DNA of 32,104 nucleotides, taken from assembly GCA_013152515.1 (NCBI GenBank), contig JAADGD010000105.1, positions 1 to 32,104 of the forward strand, written 5' to 3'. The stretch's first letter is position 1. Each line of letters opens with the position of its first letter. Below, piece by piece: positions 8,065-26,868 of this stretch. Made by a program: the position numbers and the translations under genes. Below the pieces are notes generated by a model, which was not told the DNA's origin, made no database searches, and saw nothing but the letters and a program-made list of their open reading frames with translations. The stretch is from Planctomycetota bacterium. Lineage in GTDB: Bacteria; Planctomycetota; Planctomycetia; Pirellulales; Lacipirellulaceae.

Positions 8065-8799
8065 ATGCGTAAACTCGCTCACCTGTTTGAAAGCAACGCC
8101 AATTGGTCCAAGAAAATTTCCAAGGTCGATCCAGAATTTTTTGCACGTTTGGCCCACCAACAGGCGCCTGCTTATTTGTGGATTGGTTGCGCGGACAGTC
8201 GTGTGCCTGCAAATCAAATTGTAGGTGTCGACCCAGGCGAGTTGTTTGTTCATCGCAATGTCGCGAACGTCGTGGTCCATTCCGACCTGAATTGCCTCTC
8301 GGTGGTTCAATTTGCGGTCGAGGTTCTCGAAGTCAAGCACATCATTGTCTGTGGACATTACAACTGCGGTGGCATCACCGCAGTGATGAACCATCGAGAA
8401 CTCGGCCTGATCGACAATTGGCTTAGCCACCTCCACGACATACGTTACCAACACCGTGACCGTCTTGAGGCGATTGTCGACCCGCAATCGCGTTGCGATC
8501 GTCTTTGCGAACTCAACGTCATCACTCAGGTTTCCAATGTCTGCCGTACCACGATCGTCCGCGATGCTTGGCAACGAGGACAAGATCTTGCCGTCCACGG
8601 CTGGATCTACGATCTCTCCGATGGGCGGTTGTGCGACATGAAAATGTGCGTCACTAGCACGGAAGAAATGGAAACCGCGTACTTGGCAGCCATTGAGTCG
8701 ACAGAAGGGACCGATCGAATCCTCCCTCCCGAGATATTTGCCGAACAAGATTACCTCTCCGCCGCATCAAACACGCGTGAAAAGACGCCGCGAACGTGA
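8065..8799 (+). CDS. can: Beta-class carbonic anhydrase
   Basis: Interconverts carbon dioxide and bicarbonate in the cytoplasm. Starting at the ATG at 8065 gives 244 residues, with zinc and active-site residues Cys42, Asp44 and Arg46 (GCADSR) and His98 and Cys101 (CGHYNCGG). This is the same numbering as the Escherichia coli Can enzyme and supports this start over an in-frame ATG at 7972, which would add 31 unlike residues. The body reads as a standard beta-CA, with FVHRNVAN and a C-terminal VHGWIYDLSDGRL. The Shine-Dalgarno is weak (GAGAG about 10 bases upstream). The last 49 bases overlap the convergent end of glnE. Whether it supplies bicarbonate for biosynthesis or pH control cannot be judged from context. 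Confidence 0.95.
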   Translation: MRKLAHLFESNANWSKKISKVDPEFFARLAHQQAPAYLWIGCADSRVPANQIVGVDPGELFVHRNVANVVVHSDLNCLSVVQFAVEVLEVKHIIVCGHYNCGGITAVMNHRELGLIDNWLSHLHDIRYQHRDRLEAIVDPQSRCDRLCELNVITQVSNVCRTTIVRDAWQRGQDLAVHGWIYDLSDGRLCDMKMCVTSTEEMETAYLAAIESTEGTDRILPPEIFAEQDYLSAASNTREKTPRT

Positions 8800-11700
8800 C
8801 CAAACATCTCGGCCACTTCTGTCGAGAGTTTTTCGACGTCGGGATGGCCGAGCAGAAACGCCAGCTTCGCCAATTCAAGCGAGTCGGTTGGGAACTCGTG
8901 CCGACCGGCGGCGTCCATCAATCGGATGCGGGCTTCGATACTGCGTTGAAAGCGATACGAATCGAGCAGAAAGTCGGCATCCTCGGACGACAAGATTCCT
9001 TGCTCGCGCAGTACGGTCAACGCGGCCAAGGTGCCCGTCACGCGCACGGCTGGGTTGTCTTGCCCATGCTTGAGTTGGAGCATTTGCACGACAAATTCGG
9101 TGTCCATCGTGCCTCCGGCGCTCCGTTTGAGATTGCGCTCGGAGGCCGATTCTTGCAGCTTGAGCCGCATTTCGCGGATCTCGGTCGCAAAACTCCGTTG
9201 CCAAGGTCGACAGTACATCGCGGCGAGGAGAGCTGCCTCGGCACGCTCGACTGCTGCGGCCGAACCGATAATCACTCGCGATTTGCACAGCGATTGACGT
9301 TCCCAAAGCTGCCCATCGCCTTGCTGAAAGTAACGTACAAATTCGTCGAGCGAGACCGCCAGCGATCCGCTACGTCCCGTGGGACGCAGGCGAGGATCGA
9401 CCTCGTAGAGCCGTCCGAAAGGGCCGAAGGAGTTCGCCTGTTTGATGATGCGTTGACCTAGCTCGCTAAAAAAATGTTTGTTCGTTGTTGAACCATGCTG
9501 GCCACGCCGGTTGGCAATCGTAGACCCGTCTGCTTCGTACAAAAAAATAAGATCGAGATCGCTATGATAATTCGGCTCGCGCCCGCCCAACTTGCCCATC
9601 GCCAAGACGATAAACTCGCATCGCTGGCCGACGCGTTCGGCCCCCGGATGCCAGAGGTCGTCGATGGGCGTCTCTGCTTGCGACGTGGCGGGCAATTCGC
9701 CGATCTGCGGTTCGCCGAGCTTTTCGATCAAGCGATCGGTTTCTGTGGCGACGATTTGCTTGAGACAAACCTCGGCCACATCAGACAATTCGGCATGGGT
9801 CGCCTCAATTTTATCTTTGCCCAAAATATCTCGCACGCCGATGCGCAAATGCTGCGAAACCTTAAAGCTGTGCAAAATTGGCGAGGGATCTTCGGCTCCG
9901 TGCGTCAATTCTGCCAGCGATTGTTCGAGTGTGTCGATGTTCGGCAGATGATCGATCAGCAGGCTGTCGAGCAATTCGTCGATCATGCCTGGGTTGCTGG
10001 TCAAGATCCCCGACAAGTAGGGACAAGCCGCGCACAGGGTGACGTAGAGGTTCAGCGTCGGATGATTGCTGCTGAACAGCTCCCACAATGCCGCCTTGCC
10101 GCCGAGCGAATCGCTCACACGGCTCAGGTTCACCAGCGTCGCGTCGGGATCGGGCGTCTTGGCAATCGCTGTCAGCAGTCGCGGTGCAATCGATGCCAAG
10201 AACAGCCGGCAACGTCGCGTCGACAGAAACGGAATTCGCTCTTCGGCGAGCGACATCAGATTTGCGTAAGCCGAGTGGACATCGTCGAATGGGTACTGCC
10301 CCAAAACTTGCTGGATCGTCTCAGGTTCGGGATCGGGATTGTTGACCAGATCGACCTCGGGCTCGGTTTCGGCATCGTCGCCAAAAGCATCATGCAACAG
10401 ATGCTTCAAAATCTTGTGATTGATCTCGGTCCGCTCTCGATAGTCAGACTGAAACGCATCGACTGCCGACGCTTCAGACGTCTCTGTGTAGCCCATCCGG
10501 CGGGCGACCTTTGTCAACTCGTTGGTCGAAACGGGCAGTTGATGCGTGTGCAAATCGTACATGATTTGCAGCCGATGCTCGAGCTTACGAAGGAATCGAT
10601 AGTTTTCTTCCAGCAACATCCTTTCTTGGGGCGTCAATCCGCCCGACAGCTCCAAGCAGCCGATCGCGTCGAGTGTGTTGCCGGTGCGCACCCCGGGGTC
10701 GGCACCGCCGCTCAGCAATTGCAAAAACTGGATGACGAATTCGATGTCGCGAATCCCGCCGCGCCCCGTTTTGACGTCGGTGCCCGTGGCTTGAGCTTTC
10801 GAGGCGTTTGCTTCTATCCGACGCTTCAACGACTTGATGCCCGTGATATCAGCCAACGTCAAATAACGACGATAGATCCAAGGTTCCAAACGAGCGAGAT
10901 AATCTTTGCCCAGAGCGATATCACCAGCTATCGGACGCGCTTTCACATAAGCCTGTCGCTCCCAGGTACGCCCGCGACGATCGTAATAGCTCAGCGCTCG
11001 CTCAACATCACTGCAAATCGGCCCCTGCTTGCCTTCGGGACGAAGCCGCATGTCGACTCGATAAGCGAAACCCAGGTCGGTACTCTCGGACAGCATTTGA
11101 ATCAACGTCTGAGCCACCCGATTCGCATAGTTTTGCGACGCGGTCTCGCGACGGGGATCCGCCGCAGTTGCTGGCTGAAACAAGAACACCAGATCGATAT
11201 CACTCGAATAATTAAGTTCCAACCCTCCCAATTTCCCCATCGCCAACACGACAAAGCTGGGCGGGACGAATTCCTTTCCGCTGGGCGGATGGTACTTTTC
11301 CCAAACCGAGCGTTCTGCAAATTCCAAAGCTCCTGCGACGATCGCATCCGCGACGTAAGAGATTTGGCGTGTGATTTGATCGACCGGCAGCCCCTCGACA
11401 ATATCGCCATAGGCAATTCGCAAAGTCTCGCGACGTTTGAAGCGGCGCAACACGGCCAGAACATCTTGTTCGTTACTCAATTCGCGAACACTCTCGATCA
11501 ATTCTTCGACCAGCAACTCGCGCGCAACTGGACGGCCTTCGGTCATGCGCAACAGGTCATGGCTTTCGGCGTCCGAACAAAGCTGATCACTCAGGTGTTG
11601 ACTGCTACTGAATATCAGCAGCAAGTTTGGCAGCGATCGTTCGTCGCGTTCAAACAGGGCCGCCGCCGACAGCAGGCTGCGCGAAGAAAGCAAGAATCGC

Positions 11701-11918
11701 TCCAGATTATTGAGCGCCATATCGGGATCGGCAAGCTGTGGTGCCGTCGCAGCGAACTGTTCGCAAATCGTCCCCAACAAATCAAGTGGCAACCCCGCCC
11801 TAGCCAGTCGCAGCAAATTGGCATGAGCGGTGCGAGGATGCACGATCCCCAGCGACGTCAGCCAAGGCTCCGCTTCCGCGTAAGAGTCCAGCAGAGAGTG
11901 AATGTGGTCAAGCTGCAT
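8751..11918 (-). CDS. glnE: Bifunctional glutamine synthetase adenylyltransferase/deadenylyltransferase
   Basis: Controls glutamine synthetase by attaching and removing AMP. The 1055-residue product has the duplicated architecture of GlnE: a first nucleotidyltransferase domain with MGKLGGLELNYSSDIDLVFL at about 227-246, and a second with MGKLGGREPNYHSDLDLIFL near 755. Each is followed by the conserved GRxGxxxD..F-type segment (TGRGGIRDIEFVIQF, and SAGGTMDTEFVVQMLQLKHG in the second half). The metal-binding S-D-x-D residues are present in both, so both activities look possible. It is rather longer than the roughly 950-residue enterobacterial enzyme. The 3' end overlaps carbonic anhydrase by 49 bases, tail to tail. 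No glnA or glnB is in the window. No clear Shine-Dalgarno precedes the ATG at 11918. Confidence 0.95.
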   Translation of the reverse strand: MQLDHIHSLLDSYAEAEPWLTSLGIVHPRTAHANLLRLARAGLPLDLLGTICEQFAATAPQLADPDMALNNLERFLLSSRSLLSAAALFERDERSLPNLLLIFSSSQHLSDQLCSDAESHDLLRMTEGRPVARELLVEELIESVRELSNEQDVLAVLRRFKRRETLRIAYGDIVEGLPVDQITRQISYVADAIVAGALEFAERSVWEKYHPPSGKEFVPPSFVVLAMGKLGGLELNYSSDIDLVFLFQPATAADPRRETASQNYANRVAQTLIQMLSESTDLGFAYRVDMRLRPEGKQGPICSDVERALSYYDRRGRTWERQAYVKARPIAGDIALGKDYLARLEPWIYRRYLTLADITGIKSLKRRIEANASKAQATGTDVKTGRGGIRDIEFVIQFLQLLSGGADPGVRTGNTLDAIGCLELSGGLTPQERMLLEENYRFLRKLEHRLQIMYDLHTHQLPVSTNELTKVARRMGYTETSEASAVDAFQSDYRERTEINHKILKHLLHDAFGDDAETEPEVDLVNNPDPEPETIQQVLGQYPFDDVHSAYANLMSLAEERIPFLSTRRCRLFLASIAPRLLTAIAKTPDPDATLVNLSRVSDSLGGKAALWELFSSNHPTLNLYVTLCAACPYLSGILTSNPGMIDELLDSLLIDHLPNIDTLEQSLAELTHGAEDPSPILHSFKVSQHLRIGVRDILGKDKIEATHAELSDVAEVCLKQIVATETDRLIEKLGEPQIGELPATSQAETPIDDLWHPGAERVGQRCEFIVLAMGKLGGREPNYHSDLDLIFLYEADGSTIANRRGQHGSTTNKHFFSELGQRIIKQANSFGPFGRLYEVDPRLRPTGRSGSLAVSLDEFVRYFQQGDGQLWERQSLCKSRVIIGSAAAVERAEAALLAAMYCRPWQRSFATEIREMRLKLQESASERNLKRSAGGTMDTEFVVQMLQLKHGQDNPAVRVTGTLAALTVLREQGILSSEDADFLLDSYRFQRSIEARIRLMDAAGRHEFPTDSLELAKLAFLLGHPDVEKLSTEVAEMFGHVRGVFSRVFDAAER

Positions 11919-11954
11919 CTATGATTCATGTCCTAACATCACTCTTCATTGGAC

Positions 11955-14212: not shown

Positions 14213-17200
14213 ATGATGATCAGAATCTGTCGAATAACATGGTTTGCGTTGCTTTTGCCCCTTTTACTCTTTAGGTCGGCACCCGCGGGTGATTGGCCTA
14301 TGTGGCGATTCGATGCAGGTCGCACAGCGGCTTCTCCGGACGACCTGCCTGAAGATCTCGTGCTGCAGTGGACGCGTCGGTATTCCCCCCGAACGCCGAC
14401 TTGGGATGATCTGCTCAACAACGACCTGATGCCGTATGACAGGGTGTTCGAGCCGATTGTTGCTGAGGGCCGAGTGTTCGTTGGCTTTAACGACTCTGAT
14501 AAGTTGGTCTGTTGGGATGTGAAAACGGGCGAGGAACTCTGGCATTTTTTCACCGAAGGGCCGGTGCGACTCCCTCCTGTTTCCTGGAACCAATATGTTT
14601 ATTGCGTGAGTGATGATGGCCACCTGTATTGCTTGAATGCGTCTGACGGTAGCCTTTGTTGGAAGTTTCGCGGTGGGCCTTCTGCTCGGAAAGTCTTGGG
14701 CAATCGTCGAATCATTTCGATGTGGCCTGCGCGTGGAGGACCTGTCGTCCGAGAGGGCCGCATCTATTTCGCGGCGAGTATTTGGCCTTTTATGGGCACT
14801 TTTATCTATGCGCTCGACGCAGAAACGGGACGCGTCGAATGGGTCAACGACAGCACATCGGCCAGCTACATTCAGCAGCCTCATAGTGCTGATTCGTTTG
14901 CTGGTGTCGCACCGCAAGGAGCATTCGCCGCTACCGAAAAATATCTGGTCGTGCCGGGCGGGCGTTCTGTGCCCGCTGTCTTCGATCGACATACGGGCCA
15001 GCTAGTTCATTTTCATCTCAAAGAAGGTGGAAAAGGAACCGGCGGCACATTGGTGATTGCTAACGACCGCGATTTCTATGTCCACACGCGGCTACGAGGC
15101 GTGCGGAAATTCGACTTGGTGAGCGGAAAAAAGACCGAAGTTCTCATCAACGAGCCTGTCTTGGATGGCGAGTTGGTCTATACCTCGACCGCCGATTCGG
15201 TCCGAGCGATCGACGAGAACAAACAAGTGGTTTGGGAACTGCCGGTCGATGGAAGCGGCGATCTCATCAAGGCAGGCAACACGCTTTATGTTGCCGGCAA
15301 GAGCGAAATTACTGCGATTCGGCTCCCCACCGAGACGCAACCAGCGCAGCGATCGGGCACAATCCCTGTGGAGGGAGAGGTGGTTCGTCTCGTTGCCGGC
15401 GGTGATTCGCTGCTGGCCGTGACTCGAGACGGACGCATCTTTGCCTTTGGAGCGGCTGGTGCGTCGAATCCAAGAGCCATTGCGGATCCCAGAGCCATTA
15501 CGAGCCAGCAACGCCCTCTCGATACGGTCGAAGACCCCGCGACGAAGGCTCTGCTTGCTGAGCATGGAGCGACCGAGGGATATGCGTTTGTTTACGGCGT
15601 GGACGATCCGAAGTTGCTCGATCGATTGTTGTCCAGTAGCGATCTACACCTCGTGGTTGTTGAAAAAGATGCGGCCCTCGTAGCGCAACTTCGCGAGCGC
15701 TACGATGCGACGGGCCACTACGGAAAGCGAATCGCAATTCACACCGGCGACCCTCTCACTTTTCGGGCGCCGCCTTACGTCGCTTCTGTGGTAGTTGTGG
15801 GCACAACTGATGTCTCGCAACTAGCTCGCCCAGACATGCTGCGTGCCATGTACGAATCGGTGCGGCCTTATGGTGGGATCCTGTGGTTTCCACTGGCAAA
15901 AGACCGAGAACAAGTCACCGAGGCTCTGTCGGCGGCAGATCTCGAGCAGGTACACCTAGTTTCTGGCGAGGCGAATGTCGTGCTCGCGAAGCGTGTTGGG
16001 CCACTCCCAGGTTCGGCACCTTGGACCCATCTGTACGGCAATGCTGCGAACACGGTGAAGTCTGACGACCAGTTGGTCAAGTTACCGCTGGGAGTCTTGT
16101 GGTTTGGTGGCAACTCGAATCAGGATGTGTTGCCCCGACATAGCCACGCGCCTTGCGAACAGGTGATCGGAGGTCGCTTGTTTGTGGAAGGCATGAACTC
16201 GTTGAGTGCCCGTGATGTTTACACAGGCCGTGTCTTGTGGATTCGGCAATTTGAAGATTTGGATACGCAAGGCATTTATTACGACGACACTTATACGAAC
16301 AAGCCCCTAGACCCTTCCTACAATCAAGTTCACATACCTGGCGCCAATGCGCGTGGAACGAATTTTGTGGCCACTCAGGATAGTGTCTACCTAGCCATCG
16401 GCAACGAATGTCATGTGCTGGCTGTGGCAACTGGAGAAACCACGCAGGTCATTCCACTTCCCAAGAATGCGGAGGGAGACGCCGCCGACCATTGGACCTA
16501 CCTAGCCGTGTACGGTGACATCCTTCTGGCTGGTGTCGACTATGCGGACTTTGCCAAACGCTTTGGATACACCTACAAACCGACCCGCCGCCGCAGTGGT
16601 GCTTGGAGTTCGGAATGGTTCGGTTCGCGAAGTCTGGCAGCATTGGATCGCCATTCCGGAAAACTCCTCTGGCGAGTCGACGCCCGTTATAGTTTTTTGC
16701 ACAACGGCATCGTTGCTGGGAACAACACGGTCTTCCTGTTGGACAAGCTGCCTCTTTCGGTGGAAAAGCAACTCTCACGCCGCGGACAGCCCGAGCCTTC
16801 GGATTATCAAATTCTGGCTGTGGATGCGAAAACTGGCGACATACTTTGGAAAAAGGAGAGCGATATCTTCGGCACTTGGTTGGGGTTCTCTCAGGAACAT
16901 AACATTCTGATTCAGGCGGGCGCGGACGCCTCTGACCGCGCGATCGACGAAATTGGACAGGGCATCGTGGCGTTGCGTGGAGATGATGGCAGCGAGATTT
17001 GGCAGAAGTCGAGCTTTAAATACACGGGCCCTTGTATTTTGCACAACGACATGTTGATGACCAATTCGTCTTCCCGCAGACAGACCAATGGTTTTTTTCA
17101 CTTGCTCGACGGGTCTCCCGTCTTGATCGAAGATCCACTGACGGGCCGGCAGATACCTTGGAAATACACACGCACTTACGGTTGCAATACGGCCGTGGCG

Positions 17201-18019
17201 AGCGAGCATCTGCTCACCTTTCGTTCTGGGGCTGCGGGGTACTATGATCTAAGCATGAAATGCGGAGTCGGCAATCTTGGTGGTTTCCGCTCTGGCTGTA
17301 GTTCCAACCTGATCGCAGCGGACGGCGTGTTGAACGCTCCCGACTTCACGCGCACTTGTAGTTGTGGTTATCAAAATCAAACATCGCTGGCGCTAGTGCA
17401 TATGCCTGAAGTAGAAACCTGGACAATCAGTCATTTTGATGACGTGAACAAGACAGGCCGGCTCAAGCGGGTTGGTATCAATTTTGGCGCACCCGGCGCT
17501 AGACGTTCTAGCAATGGCACGCTCTGGCTGGAGTTTCCTTCTGTCTCGGAGCGTCCTTATCCGATCGAGATCGACGTGACGGGGCCTAACGTCGACTACT
17601 TTCGGCGGCATATGTCGGTCGCGAGCGGCAACGCGCCTTGGATCGCGTCATCGGGCATCAAGAATGTTTCGAGCGTGACGCTGAAACTGCCAACAGCCAA
17701 GGCAACCGACTCCGCCGAGACGGCTGCCGCTCGGCCGTACACGGTGTGTCTCCGGTTTGCCGAACCCGAATCGAAGCCTAGCGGTCAGCGAATTTTTGAT
17801 GTGCTTATCCAGGGCAAAGTTGTCCTAACCGATTTTGATATCCGTCGCGAGTCGGGAAGCCCGTGGCGCGACGTTGAGAAAACCTTTTCAGGAATCCTTC
17901 TCGAAGACAGAAGCATTTCGATAGAACTGCGATCTCAGACACCAGATTTCCCGCCCGTGTTAAGTGGCCTGGAACTCATCGCAGAGCCAGATCAACTGCC
18001 GGAAAGTCTGTCCGATTGA
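14213..18019 (+). CDS. Secreted PQQ-type beta-propeller protein with inserted methyltransferase-like domain and C-terminal malectin-like domain
   Basis: The 1268-residue product begins with a signal peptide (1-25, cut after APAG or nearby). Residues about 26-415 are a first PQQ-like propeller with repeats such as VFVGFNDSDKLVCWDVKTGE and LYCLNASDGSLCW. Residues about 430-595 have the alternating strands of a Rossmann methyltransferase (LHLVVVEKD as strand 2, MYESVRPYGGILWFPLA as the late strand), but the glycine loop is reduced to YGVDDPKLL. Residues 600-1065 are a second propeller, ending in the cysteine signature C991, C1029, C1049, C1051. Residues about 1085-1260 resemble malectin/CBM57 (YTVCLRFAEPE, RIFDVLIQGKVV), suggesting carbohydrate binding. 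The ATG at 14213 is followed by a second ATG. Probably periplasmic or surface; enzymatic activity is doubtful because the SAM loop is degenerate. Confidence 0.85.
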   Translation: MMIRICRITWFALLLPLLLFRSAPAGDWPMWRFDAGRTAASPDDLPEDLVLQWTRRYSPRTPTWDDLLNNDLMPYDRVFEPIVAEGRVFVGFNDSDKLVCWDVKTGEELWHFFTEGPVRLPPVSWNQYVYCVSDDGHLYCLNASDGSLCWKFRGGPSARKVLGNRRIISMWPARGGPVVREGRIYFAASIWPFMGTFIYALDAETGRVEWVNDSTSASYIQQPHSADSFAGVAPQGAFAATEKYLVVPGGRSVPAVFDRHTGQLVHFHLKEGGKGTGGTLVIANDRDFYVHTRLRGVRKFDLVSGKKTEVLINEPVLDGELVYTSTADSVRAIDENKQVVWELPVDGSGDLIKAGNTLYVAGKSEITAIRLPTETQPAQRSGTIPVEGEVVRLVAGGDSLLAVTRDGRIFAFGAAGASNPRAIADPRAITSQQRPLDTVEDPATKALLAEHGATEGYAFVYGVDDPKLLDRLLSSSDLHLVVVEKDAALVAQLRERYDATGHYGKRIAIHTGDPLTFRAPPYVASVVVVGTTDVSQLARPDMLRAMYESVRPYGGILWFPLAKDREQVTEALSAADLEQVHLVSGEANVVLAKRVGPLPGSAPWTHLYGNAANTVKSDDQLVKLPLGVLWFGGNSNQDVLPRHSHAPCEQVIGGRLFVEGMNSLSARDVYTGRVLWIRQFEDLDTQGIYYDDTYTNKPLDPSYNQVHIPGANARGTNFVATQDSVYLAIGNECHVLAVATGETTQVIPLPKNAEGDAADHWTYLAVYGDILLAGVDYADFAKRFGYTYKPTRRRSGAWSSEWFGSRSLAALDRHSGKLLWRVDARYSFLHNGIVAGNNTVFLLDKLPLSVEKQLSRRGQPEPSDYQILAVDAKTGDILWKKESDIFGTWLGFSQEHNILIQAGADASDRAIDEIGQGIVALRGDDGSEIWQKSSFKYTGPCILHNDMLMTNSSSRRQTNGFFHLLDGSPVLIEDPLTGRQIPWKYTRTYGCNTAVASEHLLTFRSGAAGYYDLSMKCGVGNLGGFRSGCSSNLIAADGVLNAPDFTRTCSCGYQNQTSLALVHMPEVETWTISHFDDVNKTGRLKRVGINFGAPGARRSSNGTLWLEFPSVSERPYPIEIDVTGPNVDYFRRHMSVASGNAPWIASSGIKNVSSVTLKLPTAKATDSAETAAARPYTVCLRFAEPESKPSGQRIFDVLIQGKVVLTDFDIRRESGSPWRDVEKTFSGILLEDRSISIELRSQTPDFPPVLSGLELIAEPDQLPESLSD

Positions 18020-20686: not shown

Positions 20687-21472
20687 TCAGAGTGAACGAC
20701 AAACGGGGCAATCCGGGCGTCGATGGATTGCGATCTCGCCGTGAGTGCCACGGCGGAGGTCGGCGCAAAGCAGGCGATTGGTCAGAGGATCGCCGATGTC
20801 GGTGATGAGTTTGATCGCTTCCACGGCGCCCAGGCAACCCACGGTTCCGGACACAGCTCCAAAAACGGGGAACTTCCGCTTCCAGCCGGACGGATCTTCG
20901 GGATAGAGACATCGCAGGCACGGCGTCTCGCCAGGAATCATCGTGGTGATTTGGTATTCCATGTCATACATAGCGCACTCGACGATCGGCTTGCCTTGCT
21001 GGAAGGCTGCTCGGTTCATCGCGTAGCGTTCCGTAAAAAGCGGCGCACAATCCACGACGAGGTCGGCTTGTGCGACGATCTCGTTGATTTTTTCCTCCGA
21101 GATGTTTTCCTCGGAAAGATTGGCGTTGTATGTCACGAGATTGAGACGCGGGTTCAGGTCGAGCAGCCGACGTCGGACCGATTCGATACGCGGCTTGCCA
21201 AGCCAATCATGGGTCATTAGCAATTGACGGTTCAAATCGCTTGGTTGCAAGTTGCCCGCATGGGCGAGTACGAGCGTGCCGACACCGGCAGCAGCCAACT
21301 CGTAGGCGACAACGCTGCCCAGTCCTCCGCAACGCGAAACGAGGACCGACGCTCCTTTGAGTCGCTCCTGCCCCGCTTCGCCCAGGTCTTCGGTGGCGAT
21401 CTGCCAATCCCAGATCGCGCGGTCCTCGTCAGTCAACGGAACTTTCTTCTCGCCGCATCGAAATTGACTCAT
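20687..21472 (-). CDS. MoeB/ThiF/HesA-family adenylyltransferase-like protein
   Basis: A 261-residue E1-like protein. In the family it adenylates the C-terminal Gly-Gly of a MoaD or ThiS partner. Seen here are zinc cysteines Cys185, Cys188, Cys255 and Cys258 (CLRC and CPVC), the SDLNRQ segment with the Arg finger (about 78-83), and an Asp in VVDCAPL at about 141. Two nucleotide-binding features are altered: the usual GxGGLG is SRCGGLG, with Arg at the first Gly, and the usual acidic DxD after strand 2 is AHAG. It may therefore bind ATP differently or have lost activity. The start ATG is 4 bases after the stop of the moaD-like gene, whose last codons provide GGAGGA as its ribosome binding site, so the two are translationally linked. 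Confidence 0.88.
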   Translation of the reverse strand: MSQFRCGEKKVPLTDEDRAIWDWQIATEDLGEAGQERLKGASVLVSRCGGLGSVVAYELAAAGVGTLVLAHAGNLQPSDLNRQLLMTHDWLGKPRIESVRRRLLDLNPRLNLVTYNANLSEENISEEKINEIVAQADLVVDCAPLFTERYAMNRAAFQQGKPIVECAMYDMEYQITTMIPGETPCLRCLYPEDPSGWKRKFPVFGAVSGTVGCLGAVEAIKLITDIGDPLTNRLLCADLRRGTHGEIAIHRRPDCPVCRSL

Positions 21473-21775: not shown

Positions 21776-21909
21776 AAGGTAACAATTCACGCAAAAGCAG
21801 GAGCCGCTGATGAACGCCGATAAACGCAGATGCGAAACCTGAGTTTATCTATCTGCGTTTATCTGCGTTCATCAGCGGCTTTTTCTTTTTTTCTGTGAAG
21901 GGTTACCTT
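21776..21909. repeat. Nested palindrome inside the operon
   Basis: Outer arms AAGGTAAC (21776-21783) and GTTACCTT (21902-21909) enclose inner arms 21802-21831 and 21851-21880, which pair at 29 of 30 positions (AGCCGCTGATGAACG...). The right outer arm contains the stop codon of the ModC-type gene. The element separates the transporter genes from the moaD/moeB-like pair. A T-run (21881-21892) flanks it on the plus strand, so termination towards the pair (minus strand) is not favoured by that feature. Confidence 0.9.
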
Positions 21910-22601
21910 AATTTGACCATTGGCGGCCCTTGCGAAGGAAGATCACTCTCAGCATCCTTCGGGAGGTTCTTTTCAATCACATAGATTTGGTCGGCCAGTT
22001 GTTTGGCTTCCGCGAGGCTATGCGTCACATGGAGAACTGTTACCGGCATCTCGCGGCGGATGCCTTCGATCAGCCCAATCATGTGTTCGCGGGTTTCATC
22101 GTCGAGCGCTGCAAGCGGTTCGTCAAGTAGCAATGTCGTCGGCGAGAAGGCCAGCGCCCGGCCCAAAGCAACCCGTTGTTTTTCGCCTCCGCTCAGATGA
22201 ACAGGGGATCGCGCGAGTAGATGTCGAATTTCTAGGAGAGTGGCCAAGTCGAGTACACGCTCCTTGCGTTGTTCTCGTGCGACACGCCGTACATGCAGCC
22301 CAAAAGCAAGGTTTTCAAACACCGACATGTGGTTGAACAGAGCGCCATCTTGAGGGACGTAGCCGATGCCGCGATGAGCGGGCGGAAAATCGGTCACGTC
22401 GCGGTCGTCAATGCGAATCGATCCTTGCGTCACGCGGCGCAACCCGGCGATCGCTTCGAGGATGGTCGTCTTTCCTGAACCGGTCTTTCCCATCAAGGCA
22501 ACGTAACTGCCTTGGGGAGCGACCAAACCGACATTTTCGATTTGAAATGCGCCTGCACGAATCGTGACGCCATCCAGTTCGATTCCGGGGATCGTGTTCA
22601 C
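21903..22601 (-). CDS. Molybdate/tungstate-type ABC transporter ATP-binding protein
   Basis: The ATPase of an oxyanion importer, about 232 residues. Walker A is GKTGSGKTT, the signature LSGGEKQRVALGRAL, Walker B TTLLLDEPLAALDD and the switch His in LHVTHSLAEA. The closest resemblance is to ModC/WtpC/CysA-type importers (PPAHRGIGYVPQDGALFNHM), but it is short, lacking the C-terminal MOP/TOBE regulatory domain of typical ModC. I prefer the GTG at 22601, which overlaps the permease stop as GTGA and has GAGGT 6-7 bases upstream, over the ATG at 22625. It powers the ModB-type permease encoded just upstream. Confidence 0.9.
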   Translation of the reverse strand: MNTIPGIELDGVTIRAGAFQIENVGLVAPQGSYVALMGKTGSGKTTILEAIAGLRRVTQGSIRIDDRDVTDFPPAHRGIGYVPQDGALFNHMSVFENLAFGLHVRRVAREQRKERVLDLATLLEIRHLLARSPVHLSGGEKQRVALGRALAFSPTTLLLDEPLAALDDETREHMIGLIEGIRREMPVTVLHVTHSLAEAKQLADQIYVIEKNLPKDAESDLPSQGPPMVKLR

Positions 22602-23407
22602 GTGAGTACCTCGCGTGTTCCCCACACTCGGGCGATCACCAGCACGACCACCGCCGCCAGGACCATCAGCAGCGAGACGGCAATGGCGGCTTCCAGATCG
22701 CCGATCGTTAGTTCAAGGAAAACGGAAGTGGAAAGCACTTCGGTTTTCATGCGTGTGGTACCGGCAAAGATCAACAACGGGCCGAATTCGCCTAGCGCGC
22801 GGGCCCAGGCCAGAGTCAAGGCGGTTAACATGCCACGCCGTGCTTCGGGCAGCACGACCAACAAGAACGCCATCATTCGACTTGCGCCTAGAGTGAGGGC
22901 AACTTGTTCGTGACGAGGATCGATCTGGTCGAATGTCGCCCGCATCGTTCGCACTGCGAAGGCGCAGGCAACGGTAAACTGTGCCAGAATCACCGCTGGA
23001 ATCTGATAGACCACCGCGCCGCTAATCAAGCTGAACGGCCAGAACTGAAACAGAATCAAGAGGCTCAGGCCAATCACTAGCGGCGGAAGCACGATCGGGA
23101 TGTCGAGGATTGCGTCGACGAGACTCCGTCCCGGAAATTTGTGGCGAGACAACAAATAACCGACCGGTATTGCAACCCACATCGAAGCGATCGCCGAGAT
23201 GGTACAGCTCGCCATCGTGAGCAGAATCGAGTATTGAATGGGTGGCTTTGCTAAGGCTCGAAAAAACTCGCGAGGCGAAGTCGAAAGCGCGTCAGCCCCT
23301 AGTAGCAGCAGAATCAACAGCACATAAGTTGCACTGATCGTGGCAAAGACGGTGTAGAAACCGATATCCTGTGCGCGAAGTCGACGTCGAGTGTCAGAGT
23401 CGATCAT
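22598..23407 (-). CDS. Molybdate/tungstate-type ABC transporter permease
   Basis: A 269-residue inner-membrane permease with about six hydrophobic segments. The cytoplasmic EAA loop that docks the ATPase is visible in EQVALTLGASRMMAFLLVVLPEARRGMLTALTLAWARALGEFGP, within which GASR and the LPEARRGML segment are the family marks; ARALGEFGPLLIFAG is typical of ModB/WtpB. DIPIVLPPLVIGLSLLIL is the usual membrane motif for this group. It starts ATGA, overlapping the stop of the binding-protein gene by 4 bases, and ends in a GTGA overlap with the ATPase gene, which indicates coupled translation. Tungstate and molybdate importers cannot be told apart here. Confidence 0.92.
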   Translation of the reverse strand: MIDSDTRRRLRAQDIGFYTVFATISATYVLLILLLLGADALSTSPREFFRALAKPPIQYSILLTMASCTISAIASMWVAIPVGYLLSRHKFPGRSLVDAILDIPIVLPPLVIGLSLLILFQFWPFSLISGAVVYQIPAVILAQFTVACAFAVRTMRATFDQIDPRHEQVALTLGASRMMAFLLVVLPEARRGMLTALTLAWARALGEFGPLLIFAGTTRMKTEVLSTSVFLELTIGDLEAAIAVSLLMVLAAVVVLVIARVWGTREVLT

Positions 23408-24951
23408 TGCAGGCGGAACCCCAGCTTCTCAAACCGTTGCTGCTGTTCCGCCCGCAAGAGATATTTGAAGAGCCTCTCGGAGAGTTTTGGGAAAGAAGTC
23501 TCTTGGGCGATGGCGTAGGTTTGCACAGCAATGGATTTGGGGTGGTCGATTGGAATGACAGGCATTTCGTCTTTCACTTTGGTGCAGTTCACTCGGTAGA
23601 CGATTGCCGCGTCGAGACCGCCTGCCTTCATCGCATTGACCAGCAGATCGGCGGTCGGTGTTTGCACGACACAATTCTTCATAACCTGCTCATAAACGCC
23701 CTCTGCCTTGAGCAATGTCCGAGAAAGTCCACCCAGTGCGCTTTCCTCCGGATTGGCCAGCCCCACGCGCAACCCCGATTGGGTGAGATCCGCAAGAGTC
23801 TGAATCTTGTAGGGATTCTTCGGTTGGACCAAGATGACCATGTCGGTACTGGTGGCTCGGATCGGGGTTTGGAACAGTGGGCTGACGAGATCGTGGTACG
23901 AAGCATCGCAACTGATGTACATGTCTGGGAATAAATCGCTGCGCGTGCCCTCGCGAATACTTTTCATCTGGCTGACCAACAGCCCACAGCCTTGGTAGAG
24001 GCGATTGATCTCGACACCTTCGCGTGCGGCAAAGGCGTCGATTTGGTCGTCGATTGCCAGCCGATTGACTCCGCCGCTGTAGATCGTGAGCTTCGGTCGC
24101 TCCGCCCAAAGGTCGCCTGAAGTAATACGGAATCCATGTTCTTTGAATCGTGGCAGCCCACGGTCCCGTGAAGTCAGGTAGCGGGCGAATCGCAGTGCGT
24201 CGGTGGGATGGTCGCTCGTCGCGATAATCCCTACGGTAATGTTTGCCTCGCCGCTATCAAGTTCTGGCACTCGGACCGCTTCGAGCGCCGCGTATTGCGA
24301 GGCGGTCGCGTCCCACACGATCGACGCATCGGCGCTACTGCCGACCAGAACTGCGGTAGCCGCCTCGGTAACGGTTGGCATAAACGCACCCCGTTTGCGA
24401 ACTTGTGCCTCTAGTTGCGACCAGAGTCCGGCATCGTCGACCAGTTTGCGTGTTGTTTTGCCAATGGCCGCGCGTTCTGGGTCTCCCAGCACAACGGTCA
24501 CGTCGTCGCGAAGCAGGTCCTTCAACGTCACAATGCTTTTGGGATTTCCTTTCTTCACGAGGATGACTGGTCGAATGTGGGCAAGCTCGATCTGCTCGAC
24601 GGTCAATCCTTTTTCAGACGCTAAGTCAAGGTAGCTTTGGTCAGCAGCCAGATACAGGTCGCCGATCTTGCTCACCTCCAGTTGGTTGAGCAGTGTGTTT
24701 GAACCACCGAATTGAAGTTCGACACGGACGCCATATTCTTTTTCGTACGACTTAGCGATCTCTTCGACCGGCTTGCGCATTCCAACGGCACAGTACATCA
24801 ACAACGAATGCGTTTGTGATGAATCAATGGATCGCCACAGGAGAATGCTGCTTAGCGCAGCGACAAGCACCACCGACAAGACGGCTACGAAAAGCATGCG
24901 TCCCGGTCCGCCCTGGCCGATGCCAAGTTCCTTGTCTGAAGTATCTGTCAT
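23404..24951 (-). CDS. Membrane-anchored oxyanion-binding protein with two tandem ModA-like domains
   Basis: A protein of 515 residues, twice the length of ordinary ModA/WtpA. After a short cytoplasmic tail, one helix (about 19-39) anchors it. Domain 1 (about 48-285) begins LLMYCAVGMRKPVEEIAKSY and contains FGGSNTLLNQL and GDLYLAADQSY. Domain 2 (about 286-515) begins LTIYSGGVNRLAIDDQIDAF and contains YQGCGLLVSQM and DMYISCDASYHDL. Both share RPVILVKKGNP/DMVILVQPKNP, VVLGDPERAAIG/VGLANPEESALGG, an A(A/M)..(S/G).DA.I motif and the ends FKEHGFRIT/FEKLGFRLQ, which is direct evidence of internal duplication. The ATG at 24951 overlaps the stop of the ATPase gene (ATGA); an upstream extension to 25194 in the same frame is an antisense-like shadow over that gene. 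It feeds the ModB/ModC-type pair encoded next. Confidence 0.92.
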   Translation of the reverse strand: MTDTSDKELGIGQGGPGRMLFVAVLSVVLVAALSSILLWRSIDSSQTHSLLMYCAVGMRKPVEEIAKSYEKEYGVRVELQFGGSNTLLNQLEVSKIGDLYLAADQSYLDLASEKGLTVEQIELAHIRPVILVKKGNPKSIVTLKDLLRDDVTVVLGDPERAAIGKTTRKLVDDAGLWSQLEAQVRKRGAFMPTVTEAATAVLVGSSADASIVWDATASQYAALEAVRVPELDSGEANITVGIIATSDHPTDALRFARYLTSRDRGLPRFKEHGFRITSGDLWAERPKLTIYSGGVNRLAIDDQIDAFAAREGVEINRLYQGCGLLVSQMKSIREGTRSDLFPDMYISCDASYHDLVSPLFQTPIRATSTDMVILVQPKNPYKIQTLADLTQSGLRVGLANPEESALGGLSRTLLKAEGVYEQVMKNCVVQTPTADLLVNAMKAGGLDAAIVYRVNCTKVKDEMPVIPIDHPKSIAVQTYAIAQETSFPKLSERLFKYLLRAEQQQRFEKLGFRLQ

Positions 24952-25632: not shown

Positions 25633-26868
25633 TTATTCTTGACTCAATACGACCGCAGGGTCTTGCGTGGCAGCAGTTACAGCAGGAATCCAACTCGCTA
25701 ATGCGGTCAAAAATATCGTAGCGACCATCACCACGGCTACCAGTTCGGGCACAAACAAATCGCCCGCCGAGAGTTGAATCTGCGACTCGGCGGCGAGATT
25801 CGCCGTCGCTCGCAGTCCCATCGCAAAACCGGCGAGACACCCGAGGATGGCCCCAGTGAATCCCAAAAGTAGTCCCTTCCCCACGAACAAAAGAATGATC
25901 TGTCGTGTTGAGGCACCAATGGCTCGCAAGATACCAATTTCGTAGCGACGTTGTCGAGCGTTGATGAACATCAAGAGACCGATGATTGCGCTCACAGCAA
26001 CCGCCAGCAGTACTGTTTGCTTAGTCGCGTGCTGCTGCATCTGGTCAAGCGAAGCAGCACCCTGGGCTTTGACTTTTTCGCGGGCCTCGGCGCGGGCAAG
26101 CGCGATGGACGAGCGTTCGATCACCTGCACGTCGCCCCCTAGCACGCCGGCAATTTCCGCGCGGACTTCGCCCAACCGATCGATCGACGCGCAGTTGCAT
26201 TCCAGCGCTTGAATCATATTGATGCGTCCTGGCAATTGGAGCATTTCTTGTGCCTTGGCCAAATCGATCCACACCGTGATATCGTCGCTGCTACCGCGAG
26301 AGGGGTAGACCTTTTCGAGAATAAGCTTTTCACCTCGGAACACGACTTCCTGTCCTGCTTTCAAGTTTAGCTGCTCGGCAAGGACTGCTCCAACGATGAT
26401 CTTTCCTTCCGGAACGGCAGGCTCGAGCGGTTTTTTGGGGTTCTTGCGATGCGTCCAAGGCACGACCGCAGAGACACCCATGAGAATCACGTCCCGGTCG
26501 TGCTCGCGCCAGCGGACTTTGCGGATTAGCGAGGGGCGCAAGTGGTTGATCGTCACAATCTCGCGACTGTCAGCAAGTCGCTTGACGAGGTCAAACGGCA
26601 TCGTCGCTTCGCCAAAGTCGTTGGCGTAGAGATCGGACAGATTCACTTCTTTCGGTAAAATGTCGATATTGAAACCCATGTTTTTGGTGATCTTGCGAAT
26701 CTCGTCATTGAGTTGGGCAACATGGGCTTCGGCTTTGAGTTGATGGCTGCGAACGACCAAGACCGTGCTGACGGAAACCGCAACAGCGACCACCAACACA
26801 GCCAACGCTTGCGCGAAACTCAGCTTGCGATAGAGGATCTCTAGCCAGATTAGTTGCGGTACATTCAT
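25633..26868 (-). CDS. FtsX/MacB-type ABC permease with extracytoplasmic CxC motif
   Basis: A 411-residue membrane protein with the FtsX-like layout: one N-terminal helix (about 20-40), a large outer domain (about 45-285), then three helices near 293-310, 333-360 and 375-400. The sequence RRYEIGILRAIGASTRQIILLFV is the conserved cytoplasmic segment that contacts a LolD-type ATPase. The outer domain contains ALECNCAS with Cys224 and Cys226. Such proteins move lipids or drugs, or act mechanically on cell-wall enzymes. The function here is unknown; the operon context suggests a role beside metal oxyanion uptake or export. The gene ends 4 bases before the ATPase gene, and the upstream gene is 56 bases away. 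Confidence 0.9.
   Translation of the reverse strand: MNVPQLIWLEILYRKLSFAQALAVLVVAVAVSVSTVLVVRSHQLKAEAHVAQLNDEIRKITKNMGFNIDILPKEVNLSDLYANDFGEATMPFDLVKRLADSREIVTINHLRPSLIRKVRWREHDRDVILMGVSAVVPWTHRKNPKKPLEPAVPEGKIIVGAVLAEQLNLKAGQEVVFRGEKLILEKVYPSRGSSDDITVWIDLAKAQEMLQLPGRINMIQALECNCASIDRLGEVRAEIAGVLGGDVQVIERSSIALARAEAREKVKAQGAASLDQMQQHATKQTVLLAVAVSAIIGLLMFINARQRRYEIGILRAIGASTRQIILLFVGKGLLLGFTGAILGCLAGFAMGLRATANLAAESQIQLSAGDLFVPELVAVVMVATIFLTALASWIPAVTAATQDPAVVLSQE

Follow-up and report, generated by a model that had tools for sequence, protein, structure and literature searches.

The window, by which we mean the whole 32,104-nucleotide stretch of planctomycete DNA that was analysed, contains an operon in the order hyp421-FtsX-LolD-SBP-ModB-ModC-MoaD-E1, the whole or part of which is kept in many related loci. 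Its substrate-binding protein (SBP) gene had been predicted to encode two fused ModA-like domains in one anchored protein. The features considered here are as follows:

23404-24951, minus strand: fused two-domain SBP, 515 aa, with a TM helix at residues 17-37 (from the ORF, Pfam and AF2)
24121-24813, minus strand: domain 1 of the SBP, residues 47-277, with an oxyanion-type pocket (S84, V194, W213)
23407-24099, minus strand: domain 2 of the SBP, residues 285-515, with a dithiol pocket (C322, C348, Y452)
22598-23407, minus strand: ModB-like permease, 269 aa, carrying the C68 and C148 usually seen where the SBP is fused
21903-22625, minus strand: ModC-like ATPase, 240 aa
21476-21757, minus strand: MoaD/ThiS-like sulfur carrier, 93 aa, ending in AISGG
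20687-21472, minus strand: MoeB/ThiF-like E1 enzyme, 261 aa
24948-25628, minus strand: LolD/MacB-type ATPase
25633-26868, minus strand: FtsX-like permease with a conserved C224-x-C226
26925-28190, minus strand: hyp421, with a signal sequence, C28, C283-x-C285 and a C-terminal TM segment
28643-32005, plus strand: PQQ-propeller giant, 1120 aa, with a methyltransferase-like insert and a C-terminal Cys motif
14213-18019, plus strand: PQQ-propeller giant, 1268 aa, with a malectin-like end and C991, C1029 and C1049-x-C1051

Architecture of the fused protein and its importer

The SBP gene runs from an ATG at 24951 to a stop at 23404 without internal stops, and overlaps both the LolD gene upstream and the ModB gene downstream by 4 bases. 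The coordinates of the original prediction are correct, and the gene lies on the minus strand. The tandem architecture is likewise borne out: Pfam SBP_bac_11 matches the protein in two stretches (E 1.8e-81), and structure prediction, which had been proposed as a check, returned two complete domains that follow a single TM helix (AF2 run on an alignment of four sequences, pLDDT 82; 85 for domain 2 alone). Both domains have the PBP-II fold of ModA, with Z scores of 24-26 against ModA-like structures: VIA-align gives 26.3 for domain 1 against Y. pestis ModA, and for domain 2 against the ModA-like Lmo1041 it gives 25.8 in the full model and 24.4 for the domain alone. Absence of the binding cleft from one domain would have refuted the prediction; instead, each has a full fold and a conserved cleft. 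We looked for a lipobox in the fused SBP and found none, the only anchor being the single N-terminal TM helix.

Profile-profile comparison aligned the N half with the C half over 220 columns at 27% identity (probability 99.95, E 1.3e-38), and on this alignment the two halves are judged homologous, far past chance. The matching landmarks reported for the two halves were confirmed, FKEHGFRIT and FEKLGFRLQ being the ends of domain 1 and domain 2, respectively. So was the difference between the candidate anion-binding loops FGGSNTLL and YQGCGLLV, both of which fall, in the alignment, on the ligand loop (GSSTL) of solved ModA structures. Against the TIGR01256 modA model, the whole protein scores 115 bits, the N half 81 bits and the C half 38 bits, which places the N half above and the C half below the curated cut-off of 62.5 bits.

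One ModB gene and one ModC gene lie directly downstream. ModB scores 180 bits to TIGR01581 (cut-off 210) and 149 bits to TIGR02141 (cut-off 183), and ModC 182 bits to TIGR02142 (cut-off 285). Because both fall below the NCBIfam cut-offs, the importer is classed from its sequences as ModABC-like only. At 240 aa, ModC is also shorter than its counterparts in unfused loci (~350 aa). Effectively, the locus shares a common fold and ModB and ModC neighbours with the ModA/ModABC importer (TIGR01256; structures from E. coli, Y. pestis and A. baumannii), and departs from it in having two substrate-binding domains (SBDs) in one TM-anchored chain, a dithiol pocket in domain 2, cysteines in ModB, a short ModC and scores below the molybdenum cut-offs. 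Tandem linked SBDs of different specificity that serve one importer are known from GlnPQ-type importers (PMC8025302). The present protein resembles these in having two covalently linked SBDs on one importer; however, the SBDs of GlnPQ bind amino acids and are joined to the permease domain, whereas here they belong to a separate anchored ModA-type protein, ModB having an ORF and a start of its own.

Several of the partner proteins, which the original prediction did not mention, carry conserved cysteines. The FtsX-like permease keeps C224 in 23/23 and C226 in 22/23 sequences, and its CxC lies in the extracytoplasmic part, unlike LolC/E. The hyp421 family, for which neither a Pfam match nor a PDB profile match was found, is Cys-rich and membrane-anchored, and its C28 and C283-x-C285 are unchanged in all 17 proteins compared. 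The PQQ giants have four conserved cysteines, including a CxC; relatives of both adjoin these genes elsewhere, and in one locus (L060) a giant and hyp421 form a single ORF. Giants are multicopy in some planctomycetes, where a single genome can have as many as 9 matches. The MoaD-like gene also occurs in 16 related loci. Because SAMP/UbaA models score about as well as molybdenum cofactor (Moco) models on the MoaD/E1 pair, the pair is not diagnostic. Elsewhere in the window, an 809-aa open frame (9495-11924, plus strand) lies opposite a 1055-aa minus-strand ORF (8751-11918) and is probably a by-product of codon composition.

Recurrence of the fusion and of its partner genes

The original prediction called for a survey of the fusion across planctomycetes. 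Among 294 planctomycete genomes sampled, including the window's own, 36 carry the same fusion in one ORF. These genomes spread over 13 families and include finished ones, and the fused ORFs of the other genomes are 38-48% identical to the window protein. The linker residues G279, D280, W282 and P286 are 89-100% conserved among fused proteins. That a stop or frameshift error joined two genes can practically be ruled out: the window genome is a draft (329 contigs, 80% complete) and other lineages do have adjacent unfused SBP pairs, but the single ORF and its conserved linker recur across the 13 families and in single-contig genomes (G048, G069, G152, G181, G238), which refutes an artefact of assembly or frameshift. 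Fused tandem binding domains had also been called unusual for this importer type; this holds for ModABC generally and not within Planctomycetota, where the fusion is common. For the counts below, the fused set (n=37) comprises the 36 one-ORF genomes and G281, whose C-domain is cut by the contig end; G277, in which a lone N-type domain adjoins ModB, was left out.

In a tree of single domains, all C-domains form one fully supported clade separate from the N-domains. Recent self-duplication is ruled out as the origin of the fusion, since the domains are old separate clades and since a second, different fusion (L079, L080, L083) derives from other SBP lineages. Proteins of this second fusion are lipoproteins without the Cys pair, and we infer that SBP fusion probably arose twice. 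Adjacent unfused SBP pairs (L076-L078, L082, L085-L087) and a split pair (L081) also exist, and two SBPs per ModBC is a pattern wider than the fused clade. In L086 (6708-11562), an unfused pair precedes ModB, ModC and a protein of the ethylbenzene-dehydrogenase type (EB_dh). Two further observations concern single loci: a Verrucomicrobiales-labelled MAG (L033) carries the fusion and may be misbinned, and in L128 (G031:C112) the genome search read through in-frame TGA codons in hyp421 (2 of them) and in a match resembling an SBP, which may reflect sequencing error or recoding.

The partner genes follow the two-SBP system closely. Two SBPs, fused or unfused, are found in 48/294 genomes; hyp421 is present in 42 of these 48 and in 3 of the remaining 246, and PQQ-Cys giants in 39 and 3, respectively. 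The two-SBP system, hyp421 and the giants are common to about 18-19 families. The Fisher values for the co-occurrence treat genomes as independent and are not corrected for relatedness. A lone N-type SBP without hyp421 or giants is seen in three genomes (G121, G216, G257). The correspondence is incomplete: hyp421 is missing from five fused genomes, and G277 has a lone N-type SBP, yet ModB C68, hyp421 and giants are present.

ModB varies along with the fusion. Position 68 is Cys in 33/36 loci with the fusion and in 1/11 without it (the exception being G277), position 148 in 29/36 and 2/11, and two relatives with only an N-type SBP (L073, L074) have Ser68. These cysteines would fit passage of a ligand along thiols in the importer. 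As the fused clade is a single lineage, the covariation does not represent many independent events.

Two unlike pockets

Pocket positions were defined by the ligand residues of A. baumannii ModA (S39, S66, V150, V177 and Y195; PMC11734730) and mapped by alignment; its S66 position is also numbered as E. coli S39. Domain 1 keeps the oxyanion Ser and Val positions of ModA, with Ser at the S66 position and Val at the V177 position in 40/40 copies. Its Y195 position is Trp, Tyr or Phe, its A85 position Ala or Gly, and its S39 position Gly in 33/40. In domain 2, both the S66 and the A85 positions are Cys and the Y195 position is Tyr (42/42 each), the V177 position is a small residue in 40/42, and the S39 position is Val or Met. 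In canonical planctomycete ModA (n=30), by comparison, the S66 position is Ser in 25 and Cys in 2, and the A85 position Ala in 28 and Cys in 1. Accordingly, the membership test of an oxyanion Ser is met by domain 1 and failed by domain 2, and because Cys replaces this Ser in 42/42 copies, domain 2 is classed as ModA-like and not as ModA proper.

In the window protein, the invariant residues of domain 2 are C322, C348 and Y452; the Cys-Cys geometry is unmeasured and no metal has been shown. Since the pocket Ser is lost and two invariant Cys are gained, domain 2 may, from its residues alone, bind a thiophilic ligand and not an oxyanion. The halves had been suggested to bind different oxyanions or to divide roles. 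A probable division of roles is supported, whereas 'different oxyanions' is too narrow for a domain with an invariant Cys pair.

Ferric-binding SBPs of the FbpA family share the fold (Z about 18-22), and C348 presumably occupies the position of the FbpA iron ligand Glu57, an equivalence that rests on the fold. Unlike the hard His/Glu/Tyr site of FbpA, domain 2 has Cys/Cys/Tyr, and FbpA was absent from the results of sequence-profile searches with domain 2.

Candidate ligands and the probable division of roles

Taken together, we tentatively favour, at somewhat short of even confidence, a single importer whose two sites differ, one being of the oxyanion type and the other a dithiol site; there are no binding data and the substrates are unproven. 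More specifically, a membrane-anchored receptor with two SBDs would serve one ModB2C2-type ABC importer. Domain 1 would capture a molybdate- or tungstate-like oxyanion, and domain 2 a thiophilic ligand, which could be Cu(I) or another soft metal ion, or else a thio-oxyanion. Once closed, the two domains would take turns in docking on the ModB dimer, and the ligand released by domain 2 would pass the clade-specific ModB cysteines. We infer that hyp421, the CxC-containing FtsX with LolD, the Cys-rich PQQ giants, the sulfur carrier and the E1 enzyme probably acquire and use this second ligand. Support comes from sequence and from models: both folds are predicted to be complete, domain 1 exceeds the modA cut-off, the unlike pocket residues are fixed, and ModB C68, the single ModB and ModC genes, the operon, the co-occurrence, and the presence of MoaC and scarcity of a separate ModA in fused genomes would agree with it. 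Besides the lack of binding data, the single-lineage covariation, G277, the five fused genomes without hyp421 and three genomes discussed below (G284, G010, G098) count against it.

It is also conceivable, though we consider it improbable, that both domains bind molybdate or tungstate, duplication raising capture or widening the affinity range, and that the Cys pair of domain 2 acts as a redox switch, binding being weaker once the disulfide has formed. There is a precedent: A. baumannii ModA has the same fold and a Cys pair, and its noncanonical disulfide lowers molybdate affinity from 0.177 to 30 nM (PMC11734730). ModA-like proteins are the closest structures to domain 2, and MoaD and E1 genes lie within the operon. 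MoaC is found in 36/37 fused genomes, which are taken on this basis to use Moco, and a separate ModA is rare in them (5/37 vs 149/246 genomes outside the two-SBP set). The window genome itself has MoaA and two molybdopterin oxidoreductases (PF00384); no other ModA was found in its 80%-complete assembly, and neither were MoaC and MoeA. However, the A. baumannii pair (C141 and C189, in a single-domain protein) sits at other positions than C322 and C348, domain 2 having Gly/Ala and Leu/Val there, and one Cys of domain 2 takes the place of the ligand Ser itself. Domain 2 also falls below the modA cut-off, and this explanation leaves ModB C68 and C148 and the Cys-rich partners unexplained.

The converse, that this is not a molybdate importer and that the SBP pair provides the FtsX/LolD/hyp421/PQQ-giant machinery with a different ligand (copper or some other metal, or a sulfur oxyanion), also strikes us as unlikely. 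It draws on three genomes (G284, G010, G098) that combine two SBPs with hyp421 and giants and in which no MoaA, MoaC, MoeA or PF00384 enzyme was found; because every tested Moco gene is missing there, the ligand of the wider system may not be molybdate. Genome-wide co-occurrence is, in addition, tighter with hyp421 and the giants than with MoaC, the Ser39 position of domain 1 is mostly Gly, and the MoaD/E1 pair fits SAMP/UbaA models as well as Moco models. Yet the SBPs of these three genomes are unfused and completeness is just 89% in two of them, domain 1 scores above the modA cut-off, and nearly all fused genomes have MoaC, mostly without another ModA.

Loss of ligand binding by domain 2, leaving a docking or regulatory module, is very unlikely: in its favour are the missing oxyanion Ser and a Val or Met at the S39 position, but the fold is complete and the pocket is more strongly fixed than that of domain 1. 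Because these cleft positions are fixed, a degenerate domain 2 appears unlikely from the alignments.

Extending the two-site reading, the fused receptor could serve as the uptake component of a planctomycete system that has not been described, a possibility that we hold more loosely. A soft metal or metal-sulfur ligand would enter over SBP domain 2 and the ModB cysteines and be used or matured by the FtsX/LolD/hyp421 machine to equip Cys-rich PQQ-propeller proteins, the C-domain being a dithiol SBD on a ModA-type importer. ModABC and WtpABC are given as the commonest molybdenum transporters in a survey of ~5900 genomes for molybdenum utilisation (PMC6147048). Our search of the literature on tandem ModA, planctomycete molybdenum transporters, FtsX with molybdenum and PQQ giants, which left most subscription papers outside its scope, found no description of these and no account of the fused protein or its gene set.

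If the division of roles is true, one ABC importer would handle two chemically different ligands through one permease and one receptor chain. The Cys pair of domain 2 and the matching permease cysteines make this division directly testable by mutation. These loci also caution against a plain annotation as 'molybdate importer', and the co-occurrence of hyp421 and the PQQ giants provides a functional handle on large families for which no described role was found.
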